A DNA stretch of 64,000 nucleotides. Source: Pelagibacterales bacterium SAG-MED50. GTDB taxonomy: Bacteria; Pseudomonadota; Alphaproteobacteria; Pelagibacterales; Pelagibacteraceae. Below, piece after piece: positions 9,821 to 27,745 of this stretch; position 1 is the stretch's first letter; each line of letters opens with the position of its first letter. The stretch is from contig JACWER010000008.1 of the NCBI GenBank assembly GCA_014653385.1, positions 1 to 64,000 of the forward strand. The letters run 5' to 3'. A model generated the notes under the pieces. That model was not told where the DNA came from and did not search any database. It saw only the letters and a list, made by a program, of their open reading frames with translations. Both the position numbers and the translations under genes were made by a program.

Positions 9821-9848
9821 ATTATGGAATTTATAAATTATAAAATAT

Positions 9849-10316
9849 ATGTTTTTATCTACTTACGAGAACAAACTAGACAAAAAGGGAAGGGTTTCTG
9901 TGCCTGCTAGCTTTAGATCTCATTTATCAAATCTAGGTTACAATGGTATTATTTGTTATCCTTCATTTAATAATGCTTCAATTGAAGTTTGCTCTCAAGA
10001 TAGAATAGAAAAAATTTCTTCTGCTATAGACTCTTTAAATCCATTTGAAGAAAAAAGAGATTTTTTTGCAACATCAATTTTATCAGAAAGTATTAATTTA
10101 CAATTCGATAGTGAGGGCAGAATTTCACTTTCATCAAAATTATTAAAGCATGCAAAAATAAAAAATAGCATTTTGTTTGTTGGTCAAGGCCAAACCTTTC
10201 AAATTTGGGAACCAACAACATTTGAAAAATTTAAGGTAATAGCAAGAAAAAAAGCAAATCTAAATCGAGCAAACCTTAAATGGGAAAAACATTTAAACAA
10301 TAACGAGGGGAAATAA
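9849..10316 (+). CDS. mraZ: Transcriptional regulator MraZ
   Basis: MFLSTYENKLDKKGRVSVPASFRSHL and second repeat FDSEGRISLSSKLLKHAKIKNSILFVGQGQTFQIWEP. Confidence 0.95.
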   Translation: MFLSTYENKLDKKGRVSVPASFRSHLSNLGYNGIICYPSFNNASIEVCSQDRIEKISSAIDSLNPFEEKRDFFATSILSESINLQFDSEGRISLSSKLLKHAKIKNSILFVGQGQTFQIWEPTTFEKFKVIARKKANLNRANLKWEKHLNNNEGK

Positions 10317-10319
10317 CAG

Positions 10320-11798
10320 ATGACAATTAACTTTAAAGCACCAGAAATTAAAGAATTACAACCACGACTTTTAGTAATGGGAGTTGGTGGAGCAGGTGGA
10401 AATGCAATTAATGAAATGATTGAAAATAATCTACAAGGTGTAGAATTTATTGCAGTTAATACTGATGCACAGGATTTAAAGTTAAGTAAATGTAAAACAA
10501 GAATTCAAATTGGTTTAAATTTAACCAAAGGACTTGGTGCTGGTGCCAAATTAGATATTGGTCAAGCAGCAGCTGATGAGTCTTTAAATGAAATTGTAAA
10601 TACTTTGCAGGGCGCAAATATGGTTTTTATTGCTGCTGGAATGGGTGGTGGAACAGGCACTGGTGCTGCTCATGTCATTGCCAGAGCTGCTAAAGAATTA
10701 AATATTTTAACTGTAGGAGTTGTGACTCTTCCATTCTTATATGAAGGCCCCTCTAGAATGAGAAGAGCGCAACAAGGTTTGGAAGAATTAAGAAAACATG
10801 TTGATACAATAATAGTTATTCCAAATCAAAACTTATTTAAAATTGCCAATGAACAAACAACATTTGAAGATTCATTTAATCTTTCAAATAACGTTTTAAT
10901 GCATGGTGTTCAAAGTATAACTGATTTAATGGTCAGACCAGGTTTAATCAACCTAGATTTTGCTGATGTGGAAACTGTTATGGCTTCTATGGGTAAAGCA
11001 ATGATGGGAACAGGTGAGGCTGAAGGAGAAGGTAGAGCTCTTAAAGCTGCAGAGATGGCAGTAAGCAATCCATTAATTGATGACTACACTCTTAAAGGTG
11101 CAAAAGGACTATTAGTTAATATTACTGGTGGAAAAGATCTTAAACTTTTTGAAGTTGATGAAGCAGTCAATAAGGTTAGAGCTGAAGTTGATCCAGAAGC
11201 AGAATTAATTATTGGAGCAATTACAGATTCTGAATTAGATGGAAAAATGAGAGTTTCAATTGTTGCGACATCCTTGGATGGTCAGCAGCCAGAGACAAAA
11301 TCTGTGATTAATATGGTACACCGTATCCAAAATAGAAATCCAGGTTATTCAGATTTTTCAAACATAGGATCATCCTCATCTTTTGATTTTTCAAACTCAA
11401 TTTCTAACCCTGTTTCACATGGTGCAAATGCTCTCAAACTTGAGAATGAAATTGTTCAAGAAAATAATCAAGAACATATAAATTCAAGTATTACAAATGA
11501 AGAGACAATTCAAAGTAATAGTCTTGAAACGGAAAGTGTTGTTGAAGATAGTTCTGTAAATGAAATGGAAAAGTCTTTTACTCAAGAAGCAATAGAACCA
11601 CCTCAAGAGCAAATAGTTGAAGAAAGTATTGAAGAGGATGTTTCTAACAATTTAAAAGAATTTGGTGTGGACTCTGATGCGCCAGATTTATTTAGTTCAG
11701 AAACTGAAAATTCAAGCTCAGATGATTTATTATCTTCAAATGATGATGAAGATGACGATCTTGAGATACCAGCATTCTTAAGAAGACAAAAAAATTAA
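10320..11798 (+). CDS. ftsZ: Cell division protein FtsZ
   Basis: [28 protein letters not shown] tubulin signature; C-terminal peptide [13 protein letters not shown]. Confidence 0.98.
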
Positions 11799-11816
11799 TG
11801 GTCTTCAAAGAAATAA

Positions 11817-12827
11817 ATGGACGCCACCATAGTACCGGAAGTACAAAAGCATTATCCGGTACTGCTAAAAGAAATTATTAGCATTATTTCCCCTCAATAT
11901 GGTGGCACATTTATTGATTGTACTTTTGGTCAAGGTGGTTATTCAAAAAAAATATTAGAGTTTAAAAATACTAAAGTAATTGCTTTAGATCGTGACGTTG
12001 AAAGCGAAGTAAAAGCTAATCAGATAAGAAATAAATTTGAAGATAGGTTTTTATTTAAAAACATTAAATTCAGTCAGTTAAATAATTTAAAACTAAAAAA
12101 TGAGAATATTAAAGGAGTAATATTTGATCTTGGTTACTCTTACGTTCAAATTAAGGATCCCAAAAAAGGACTATCTTTTCAATCTAAAGGGAACCTTAAT
12201 ATGCAGATGGGTTTGAATAATTATTCTGCCGAAGATGCAATTAATAAATTAGATGAAAAAGAATTAGATAAAATATTTAAATTTTTTGGAGATGAAAAAG
12301 AGAGTAAATTTTTAGCTAGAAATATTATTAAGGAGAGATCTAAAAAAAAAATAGACACCCAAACACTTGTTGAGATCATAGATAATACAAAAAGAAAAAA
12401 AAACTTTAAAGTTCATAGTGCTACAAAAGTTTTTCAAGCTTTAAGAATTTTAGTTAATAGAGAAATAAGTGAATTAATCTTTGGACTAATTAATGCAACT
12501 AAGGTTTTAAAGAAAGATGGTGTATTAGCTGTAGTTACGTTTCACTCTTTAGAGGATAAAATTGTTAAATATTTTTTTAAAAGTCTTTCTGAAAAAAAAA
12601 GTATATCTAGATATGCTCCTATTACAGAACAGCCAGAAACATTACTTAAATTAAATGAAAAAAAAGCAATTAAACCCTCTGATGATGAGATTAGCGAAAA
12701 CTTACCATCAAGATCGGCAAAACTTAGATATGCGATTAAAAAAACTGACTTTTATGATTTTAAAACCGATATTCTTGATCAATTTAGCAACTTAATTGAG
12801 ATAGAAAATTTTGGGAATAAATTATGA
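11817..12827 (+). CDS. rsmH: 16S rRNA m4C1402 methyltransferase
   Basis: [62 protein letters not shown]. Confidence 0.95.
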
Positions 12828-24529: not shown

Positions 24530-25444
24530 TTGAAAAAAAAAATATTAATACTTGCTGGTGGAATTTCAAAAGAAAGATTAATTAGCCTTGATACAGGCTT
24601 ACAAGTTTCAAAGGAGCTTAAAAAAAATGGTTACAAAGTAAAAATTTCTGAACCAGATGGCAGTTTGTCAAAAAATATTAATCAATTTAAACCTAATGTT
24701 ATATTTAATGCTTTACATGGACAGTTTGGTGAGGATGGTTATATACAAACTATTTTGGAAGGGTTTAAAATACCTTATACTCATTCTGGAGTCATTGCTT
24801 CTTCATTAGCAATGGATAAAGCAATATCTAAAAAAATTTTTATACAAAATAAAATTAATACTCCAAAATATATTAAATATTCTTATGAAGAAAATAATTT
24901 TGATTTAATAAAAAATATTGAAAAGAAGTTCAAATTTCCAGTTGTAGTTAAACCAATTAATGAGGGTTCAAGTGTAAATGTTTTTATTTGTTCAAAAAAA
25001 AGTATTTCAGGAATTTTAAATTCATTGAAAGTTTATAAAGAGATAATGATAGAAGAATTTATTGGTGGAAGAGAAATTCAAGTTGCAATTATGGGTAATA
25101 AAAAGTTAGGAGCAATAGAACTAAAACCAAAAAGAAAATTTTATGACTATAAAGCTAAATATAGTGCTAATGCAAAAACAGAGCATATAATTCCAGTAGA
25201 TCTTCCAAAAAATAAATTAAATGAGATAATGAATATATCACTAAAAGCTCACAAGATTATTGGTTGTAAGGGAGTTACCAGATCAGATTTTAAATTTTAT
25301 AAAAATAAGTTTTACTTACTAGAGATTAATACTCAACCAGGCATGACAAAACTATCTCTTGTTCCAGAAATAGCAAAGTATAATGGAATATCCTTTATAA
25401 AACTGATTGAGTGGATTTTAAAAGATGCAACAACGAAAAAGTAA
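24530..25444 (+). CDS. ddl: D-alanine--D-alanine ligase (TTG start)
   Basis: LHGQFGEDGYIQTILE; YTHSGVIASSLAMDKAISK; VKPINEGSSVNVF; LLEINTQPGMT. Confidence 0.95.
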   Translation: MKKKILILAGGISKERLISLDTGLQVSKELKKNGYKVKISEPDGSLSKNINQFKPNVIFNALHGQFGEDGYIQTILEGFKIPYTHSGVIASSLAMDKAISKKIFIQNKINTPKYIKYSYEENNFDLIKNIEKKFKFPVVVKPINEGSSVNVFICSKKSISGILNSLKVYKEIMIEEFIGGREIQVAIMGNKKLGAIELKPKRKFYDYKAKYSANAKTEHIIPVDLPKNKLNEIMNISLKAHKIIGCKGVTRSDFKFYKNKFYLLEINTQPGMTKLSLVPEIAKYNGISFIKLIEWILKDATTKK

Positions 25445-26081
25445 AAAAATTTTAATATATTTTTTTTTACTGATAGTAGTTGGCTCAATAAATAATATTA
25501 ATTTTAATGGTTTAATATTTCAAAAAATTAATAACATTAATATTATTGGATTAGATATTAAGGATAAATTAATTTTACTTAAAAAAATAGAAAAGTTTAA
25601 TCTAAATAATATTTTTTCAATCAGGAAGATTGATCTAGCAAATGAAGTTGAATCAAATTCTTTGGTAGAAAATTATTCTATTTTTAAAAGATATCCATCT
25701 TCACTAGATATCAATATAAAGAAAACTAAATTTTTGGCAAAAATAAATAAAGATGGTCAAATTCTTTACATAGGCTCAAATGGAAAATTTATAAAAAATG
25801 ATTCTTTAAATAATCAATTACCTTTTATTTTTGGAAATCCAGAGGCAATTGATTTTTTTAATATAAAAGAAATTATTGATAAATCTAAAATTTCTTACAC
25901 AAAGATAAAAAATTTATATTTTTTTCCATCTAAAAGATGGGATCTAGAATTAAGAGACGATACTATAATAAAACTACCAAATGATAATATTAGTATTGCC
26001 CTTAATTTAGCAACAGAATTTTTAGATGATAATAAATTAATAGATGCGAGAATTAAAAATCAAATTATTTTAGATGATTGA
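25425..26081 (+). CDS. ftsQ: FtsQ-like cell division protein
   Basis: Position after ddl, single N-terminal TM, POTRA-like region, RWDLELRDDTIIKLP near C-terminus. Confidence 0.8.
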   Translation: MQQRKSKKILIYFFLLIVVGSINNINFNGLIFQKINNINIIGLDIKDKLILLKKIEKFNLNNIFSIRKIDLANEVESNSLVENYSIFKRYPSSLDINIKKTKFLAKINKDGQILYIGSNGKFIKNDSLNNQLPFIFGNPEAIDFFNIKEIIDKSKISYTKIKNLYFFPSKRWDLELRDDTIIKLPNDNISIALNLATEFLDDNKLIDARIKNQIILDD

Positions 26082-26760
26082 AGATATAGACTTTGAAACT
26101 TTTCTTTATATTTCTAAAAACAAGTATCAAATATTTGTTTATGATAAAATTAATTTAAAGAATTTATACAATGAAGAAATAAAAAATGACGATGAGATTG
26201 AGTTAACTAATCTTTCAAAATTTCTTGATAATAATATTTATAAAATTGAAAAAATGATAAAAAACTTTATTAGTAATATCATTTTAATTATAGAAGATGA
26301 TAAAGTTTTAGATGCAGGTATCTCATTAAAAAAAAAAAATTATGAAAAAAATATAGATCATAAATATTTAGAAAACAGCTTAGTCGAAGTCAAAGATATT
26401 TTTAAAGAAAATTACCAAGATCAGATAATTATGCATATGATCATTGTTGAAAATGAAAATAATTTTTTATTAAATAACACAAATAACAATGATGATTATT
26501 TGTTTTTAGAGGTAAATTTTATTTCTATTACAAATAACTTCACTATTAATATTGATAAGTTGTTAGCAAATCATCAAATTGAAATTAATCGCTACATGTC
26601 AGGCAGCTATATTAAAAATTTTCTTGATGATGATTTAAATGAGTTGCCAGCTATTGCAAATAAATTAAAAAACGGTCTAAATAAAAATGAAGTTCAATTA
26701 GTCTCGAAAAATAAAGAAAATAAAGGTTTTTTTGAGAGATTCTTTCAACTATTTAGTTAA
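26074..26760 (+). CDS. Protein at the ftsA locus; candidate ATPase-less FtsA remnant (1A/1C region plus C-terminal amphipathic helix)
   Basis: 228 aa, overlaps ftsQ end and precedes lpxC; central KYLENSLVEVKDIF...LFLEVNFISITNNFTINIDKLLANHQIEINRYM parallels the FtsA SHS2 (1C) pattern; ends NKGFFERFFQLFS. No actin-fold nucleotide-binding motifs seen. Confidence 0.5.
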   Translation: MIEDIDFETFLYISKNKYQIFVYDKINLKNLYNEEIKNDDEIELTNLSKFLDNNIYKIEKMIKNFISNIILIIEDDKVLDAGISLKKKNYEKNIDHKYLENSLVEVKDIFKENYQDQIIMHMIIVENENNFLLNNTNNNDDYLFLEVNFISITNNFTINIDKLLANHQIEINRYMSGSYIKNFLDDDLNELPAIANKLKNGLNKNEVQLVSKNKENKGFFERFFQLFS

Positions 26761-26824: not shown

Positions 26825-27745
26825 GTGTCTTATTTAACTCAAAAAACAATTAAAAATAATGTTTCATTTAGTGGTGTAGCTTTACACAGTGGAGTAGATG
26901 TGAATGTATGCATTAAACCAGCTGAGCCAAATTTTGGAATTGTTTTTAAAAGAGTTGACTTCAAAGAAAATAACTTAGTTTACCCAAATTTTATGAACGT
27001 TACTAATACTTCACTTAACACAACTATTGAAAATGAATTTGGAGTTAAAGTTTCAACTATTGAACATTTAATGGGAGCATTATTTGGATTGGGAATTGAT
27101 AATGCGTTAATAGAAATAGATAATGAGGAAGTTCCAATTCTAGATGGATCTGCAAAAGAATTTATTGAAAAGATTATTGGTTCTGGATTAGAAGTAAGTG
27201 AGGCTCCTATTAAGATTATTAAAATCAATAAAGAAATAAAGTTTACAGATGGTGAGAGATTCATTTCAATAGAGCCATCTACTTTGAGTTTGGATATAGA
27301 CTTTGAATTAAAGTACAAAAATCCAATAATTGGAAATCAAACTAATAAAGTTAAAATTTTTGAAGATGATTTGACTGATATTTATAATTCAAGAACCTAT
27401 TGTTTGTTCGAAGATATTGAGTTGATCAAAAAAAATGGACTGGCAAAAGGTGGAAGTTTGCAAAATGCTATAGTTGTTAAAGATAATGAAATTTTAAATC
27501 CTAAGGGTTTAAGAAATGATAAAGAATTTGTTAATCACAAAATACTTGATTGCATAGGGGATCTTTATACGACTGGATATAGAGTAATTGCTAAAATAAA
27601 ATGCTCTCAAGGAGGTCATTATCTTACCAATCAGTTGCTTAGAAAAGTATTTGAAAATAAAGATAATTTTTCAATTCTTGAAATAAAAGAAAAAAACTTG
27701 CCTCATACTTTAATAGATAGAAAATTATTGAAATCCATAGCTTAA
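26825..27745 (+). CDS. lpxC: UDP-3-O-acyl-N-acetylglucosamine deacetylase (GTG start)
   Basis: TQKTIKNNVSFSGVALHSGVDVNVCIKPA; STIEHLMGALFGLGIDNALIEID; VNHKILDCIGDLY. Confidence 0.95.
   Translation: MSYLTQKTIKNNVSFSGVALHSGVDVNVCIKPAEPNFGIVFKRVDFKENNLVYPNFMNVTNTSLNTTIENEFGVKVSTIEHLMGALFGLGIDNALIEIDNEEVPILDGSAKEFIEKIIGSGLEVSEAPIKIIKINKEIKFTDGERFISIEPSTLSLDIDFELKYKNPIIGNQTNKVKIFEDDLTDIYNSRTYCLFEDIELIKKNGLAKGGSLQNAIVVKDNEILNPKGLRNDKEFVNHKILDCIGDLYTTGYRVIAKIKCSQGGHYLTNQLLRKVFENKDNFSILEIKEKNLPHTLIDRKLLKSIA

Follow-up and report, generated by a model that had tools for sequence, protein, structure and literature searches.

A reduced FtsA lacking subdomains 2A and 2B at the ftsA locus of many SAR11 bacteria

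Introduction

The proteins of known structure that most closely resemble the product of the gene considered here, in both sequence-profile and fold comparisons, are the FtsA proteins of Thermotoga (1e4f/4a2a), E. coli (7q6d) and Vibrio (7q6f/7q6i). In known FtsA, the nucleotide pocket is formed by subdomains 1A, 2A and 2B (PMC8998562), the tail of FtsZ is bound by subdomain 2B (PMC9098913), and FtsN binds in the cleft between 1A and 1C, the longitudinal contact being made by 2A-2B and the lateral contact by 1C (PMC7613929). PilM, like FtsA, binds the tail of a bitopic protein in its 1A-1C cleft (PMC7613929). This protein and the cytoplasmic domain of GspL/EpsL likewise have actin-like folds, and they belong to pilus and secretion systems. 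Other membrane anchors of FtsZ, viz. SepF and ZipA, are possible functional analogues of the protein described below and are unrelated to it in sequence. How much of the need for FtsA in division comes from its ATP cycle and its polymerization, and how much from its membrane-adaptor role, is an open question.

The SAR11 bacteria are among the most abundant in the ocean. Among the papers found for FtsA or FtsZ in SAR11 or Pelagibacter, neither the titles and abstracts nor a term search within one paper gave a description of a reduced FtsA. Here we describe a gene, referred to as mini-ftsA, from a 64,000-nucleotide stretch of DNA of Pelagibacterales bacterium SAG-MED50 (the window, i.e. the whole stretch that was analysed), together with its counterparts in related genomes.

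Results and discussion

A short gene between ftsQ and lpxC

A first-pass annotation of the window had reported a 228-aa ORF between ftsQ and lpxC, with a characteristic middle segment and the tail GFFERFFQLFS, and it had also claimed that FtsZ keeps a canonical C-terminal peptide. The ORF is real and is found at this place, the middle segment and the tail are both present as described, and the FtsZ peptide is retained (Table 1). The ATG of mini-ftsA overlaps the stop codon of ftsQ (ATGATTGA), and 64 bp separate the end of the gene from lpxC, so that the rest of a longer gene could not lie there in another frame. The position after ftsQ within the dcw cluster, which is that of ftsA, is seen in the window as well as in the relatives, where the order is again ftsQ, mini-ftsA, lpxC. 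The gene for FtsZ lies away from ftsQA, towards the beginning of the dcw cluster, in a region (window positions 9837-12824) where it is flanked by putative mraZ and mraW genes.

Table 1. Coordinates in the window of mini-ftsA, its parts and the neighbouring or related genes
Feature	Position	Strand	Basis
mini-ftsA, whole gene, 228 aa	26074..26760	+	ORF; orthologues at the locus; AlphaFold2 model
N-terminal part of subdomain 1A, residues 1-77	26074..26304	+	model; column counts
Subdomain 1C (SHS2_FTSA), about residues 78-168	26305..26577	+	short-form profile alignment to E. coli FtsA 54-193; PF02491
Return to subdomain 1A, residues 169-182	26578..26619	+	model; column counts
Deletion junction, about residues 183-190	26620..26643	+	profile-profile alignment with a single gap; joint alignment
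C-terminal 1A helix 191-199 and linker	26644..26715	+	model; column counts (G201 and N203 conserved, E206 invariant)
Predicted amphipathic membrane-targeting helix GFFERFFQLFS (helix 219-227)	26716..26757	+	conservation; hydrophobic moment
ftsQ	25425..26081	+	PF03799 8.3e-6, PF08478 4.1e-4; overlaps the start of mini-ftsA
lpxC	26825..27745	+	locus anchor; query used for finding the locus in relatives
ftsZ	10320..11798	+	C-terminal peptide at 11757-11789

The distribution of the short gene was surveyed with lpxC as an anchor in 200 genomes (from the same genus, and some from elsewhere in the family Pelagibacteraceae), the ORF between ftsQ and lpxC being read wherever the contig held the locus. 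Its length is bimodal within Pelagibacteraceae: 59 genomes (that of the window and 58 others, with the short form at the same place) encode a protein of 220-244 aa, and 49 genomes, 39 of them from the same genus, encode one of 368-419 aa (e.g. 369 aa in G026). None of these 59 short and 49 long forms has a length between 245 and 367 aa. The short form is present in three single-contig genomes (G003, G017 and G035, with 233 aa in the last), and a separate scan found relatives of it in many Pelagibacteraceae genomes, single-cell and other. Among the matches listed from a scan of 290 alphaproteobacterial genomes, a single FtsA frame fell below 340 aa, and that one was truncated by the end of its contig. 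Of 16 non-Pelagibacter genomes that were unmatched in the scan of the class, 10 have FtsA-like frames of at least 396 aa when the SAR11 FtsA profile is used. In six alphaproteobacterial genomes (G310, G378, G446, G449, G461 and G521; the first, third and last of these are single contigs) FtsA was detected neither by PF02491 nor by the SAR11 FtsA profile.

Identification of the short protein as FtsA

The homology to FtsA that had been claimed from pattern and gene order is supported by sequence profiles, by the fold and by the locus. When a profile of the 59 short forms was aligned with a profile of the 49 long forms, the two were collinear essentially from end to end (P 99.9, E 3e-36), with a single long gap, and a second alignment pair of short and long forms gave an E value of 7.7e-29. 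The gap opens after the strand and helix that follow 1C and closes before the last helix of 1A; a gap in this position removes 2A and 2B. At the junction the long forms carry these two subdomains, with the phosphate-2 motif, the FtsZ-tail site and the adenosine motif GxGS. A search of the PDB with the short-form profile found FtsA structures (7q6d, E 5e-4, over E. coli residues 54-193). Profiles or sets of many short forms are needed for such results, since the single protein of the window gave no meaningful match in Pfam or NCBIfam. The family PF02491 (SHS2_FTSA) matches 6 of 26 short forms, with a best value of 1.2e-5, but not the window protein itself; in G067 its match passes the cut-off when the neighbours in the frame are counted. 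The insertion of 1C within 1A, which is a trait of FtsA, is thus indicated by PF02491, by the profile match to 7q6d and by Foldseek. In contrast, PF14450 matches 17 of 17 long forms, the matched region in one long form being domain 2, and it matches no short form.

The structural match to FtsA 1A and 1C that was to be expected of a true homologue was found as well. The AlphaFold2 model of the window protein has a mean pLDDT of 82.9 and a pTM of 0.78, and in a Foldseek search with it the ranks 1-18 are all taken by FtsA chains (E from 6.9e-11). The model of a 368-aa long form (pLDDT 83.8) matches FtsA over its full length; the main secondary-structure elements of its first 189 residues, as well as its final two helices, have equivalents in the short model, whereas residues 195-324 are without a counterpart. 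In the short model, the N-terminal part of 1A is predicted to consist of strands 7-14, 17-24 and 29-37, helix 44-62 and strand 68-74, and the returning part of 1A consists of strand 170-176 and a short helix, 177-181, which holds the conserved Y179. The other near-invariant residues of the short forms are E59-K60, H121, F220, F224 and F227, and E206 of the linker is invariant. The three phenylalanines of the tail are found in 58/59, 59/59 and 56/59 short forms, respectively. An FtsA-like amphipathic helix had been proposed for this tail, and its sequence is consistent with a putative membrane helix of the FtsA type: the motif GFFE[KR]FF is conserved and is common to short and long forms, and the hydrophobic moment is raised, being 0.6 in the window protein and 0.58 on average in the short forms, compared with an internal mean of 0.36; about 10% of internal segments reach such a level.

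The next matches in the Foldseek list, after FtsA, are PilM and GspL/EpsL, and the GspL chains, with about 225-240 aa, come close to the short protein in length. One could thus ask if the short protein is a degenerate PilM- or GspL-like actin fold that was recruited to the ftsA site. This is exceedingly improbable, as these proteins score lower in the fold comparison and are not encoded at the dcw locus, whereas the short forms show ftsA synteny, group with SAR11 FtsA in a phylogenetic tree and share an FtsA-type tail helix with the long forms. The 228-aa ORF encodes a true orthologue of FtsA from which a single clean deletion within the gene has removed 2A and 2B, while 1A, 1C and the predicted membrane helix are kept. 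Among its nearest relatives is the group of full-length SAR11 FtsA proteins of 368-378 aa. The full-length proteins (368-419 aa) share with it the locus, a collinear sequence and the tail, and they differ from it in that they possess domain 2, which bears the phosphate-2 and adenosine motifs and is recognised by PF14450.

Loss of domain 2 and of the nucleotide-binding motifs

The ATP-binding motifs of FtsA (phosphate 1, phosphate 2 and adenosine) are lacking in the short forms, in agreement with what the first-pass annotation had stated for the window protein. Neither a phosphate-2-like motif nor a GxGS adenosine motif is present in any of the 59 short forms. The D-x-G of the phosphate-1 loop, which lies on the 1A side, is well preserved in the long forms of the same genus (D in 36/39, G in 39/39), but in the short forms D is not among the common residues and G is found in 6/59, i.e. 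this loop has decayed. Compared with known FtsA, mini-FtsA, having no 2A/2B, is without a nucleotide cleft, without the 2A-2B filament contact and without the known site for the FtsZ tail, although such a site may possibly be located elsewhere in the protein.

It had also been asked if an intact ftsA exists elsewhere. Neither this nor a convincing domain 2 was found, be it in the genome of the window (86% complete) or in relatives whose genomes are nearly complete. A domain-2 profile, which in three long-form genomes gives E values of 3e-48 or better, had no match below E 0.03 in eleven short-form genomes. The best match in a short-form genome, that in G149, covers 32 positions at E 0.036 and was regarded as due to chance, and the sole PF14450 match in the genome of the window is MreB rather than an FtsA domain 2. 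Since MreB is present, one might suppose that a different actin-like protein, or the product of a split gene, contributes domain 2 in trans, and in this regard the long ftsA of G069 (L101, reverse strand, about 1543) has an in-frame TAA between 1A/1C and 2A, beside a run of A, which may be an intermediate or an error. However, nothing convincing was found outside the locus in the eleven short-form genomes, and 1A has lost its phosphate-1 loop as well, which speaks against a nucleotide cleft being reconstituted. It is therefore very unlikely that domain 2 acts in trans in these bacteria.

Selection on the short gene and origin of the deletion

The dN/dS values of close pairs are 0.10-0.29 for the short forms, compared with 0.12-0.27 for the long forms, and mini-ftsA is hence not a pseudogene. 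These values bear upon the suggestion that the short ORF may be what is left of a full-length ftsA in decay, or may have arisen from such a gene by faulty assembly. Such a suggestion could draw on the complete genome G071, in which the short ftsA is frameshifted at T/A homopolymers (L084:1570-1680), due either to a sequencing slip or to a real change. However, 59 genomes carry intact frames of nearly equal lengths, in single-contig and other assemblies and with relatives in single-cell genomes, and the start codon overlaps the end of ftsQ. Thus, no frameshift or assembly error, which had been named as a possible objection, accounts for the short form, and there is hardly any chance that it is a remnant or an artefact. 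The gene is kept under purifying selection since the deletion.

In a tree of FtsA based on the shared columns, the short forms make up one clade with moderate support (SH-aLRT 87), grouped with the long forms of the same genus, and they are thus nested in, or sister to, the full-length FtsA of SAR11. A tree based on LpxC, BamD and LigA mixes short and long forms, yet a single clade of short forms is not rejected by it (p-AU 0.21). Several independent losses, which this neighbour-gene tree suggested at first, were not retained in view of the single clade in the FtsA tree and this p-AU value. The deletion probably took place a single time, within the Pelagibacter group, and it is simplest to assume that the locus later underwent some recombination. 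In two genomes, G189 and G233 (L110, L114; L193, L196), FtsA joins the main short clade, whereas LpxC, BamD and LigA do not, which is likely a result of recombination between ftsA and lpxC.

Possible function of mini-FtsA and the attachment of FtsZ

The reading that we favour, with a probability of about 0.7, is that mini-FtsA is an FtsA orthologue that, after one internal loss of 2A and 2B, now serves as a nucleotide-independent, membrane-bound 1A-1C adaptor, where we infer its function, its partners and the manner in which FtsZ is anchored. Such an adaptor would hold membrane proteins of the divisome through the 1A-1C module, the part with which known FtsA engages bitopic proteins of the divisome (e.g. 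FtsN), and would be placed at the membrane by its targeting helix. Adaptors of this kind may pair through 1C, and the attachment of FtsZ would fall to another protein or to a new surface. Mini-FtsA is unable to close an actin-type nucleotide cleft, to make the 2A-2B longitudinal filament contact, or to bind the tail of FtsZ as known FtsA does. We consider it reasonably probable that SAR11 cells with the short form divide without an actin-like FtsA filament, without the FtsA ATP switch and without the canonical FtsA-FtsZ link, the FtsA that is left being a membrane-bound 1A-1C adaptor and FtsZ relying on another protein or on a new surface. It would thus appear that, in many SAR11 bacteria, division proceeds with no functional FtsA ATPase switch. 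With the nucleotide and filament half deleted, and the remainder under selection across 59 sampled genomes, this constitutes a natural experiment on how far the ATP cycle and the polymerization of FtsA are required.

A role as passive FtsZ tether, one of those proposed in the first-pass annotation and the weak part of it, is unlikely in its usual form, since mini-FtsA has lost 2B, the subdomain that binds FtsZ. It is somewhat doubtful, but more plausible than the other alternatives, that mini-FtsA still tethers FtsZ by a different route, the tail binding to a new surface, on 1A or 1C, that became accessible when domain 2 was lost, so that the protein would be a passive, nucleotide-independent anchor. 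In favour of this, few parts of the protein are as well conserved as its membrane helix, and the FtsZ tail is essentially the same in short- and long-form species. The latter indicates that FtsZ still binds something in the short-form species, perhaps mini-FtsA, which counts against the adaptor reading. Further, no SepF was found in the 13 genomes searched, and ZipA is not known from alphaproteobacteria, so that another anchor is not in sight. However, the unchanged FtsZ tail, standing beside a radically changed FtsA, suggests that its binding partner is another protein, and mini-FtsA is without 2B, where the site known for this tail lies (PMC9098913). A further point against the adaptor reading is that no FtsN-like partner was found: FtsN was not identified by a SPOR search of these genomes, as the SPOR matches considered as candidates look like an RlpA-type lipoprotein beside dacA. 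In one case (L308, G000:C12 near 119940), the SPOR protein adjoins dacA and a lytic-transglycosylase-like gene and is RlpA-like rather than FtsN. ZapA was found in all of the 13 genomes searched.
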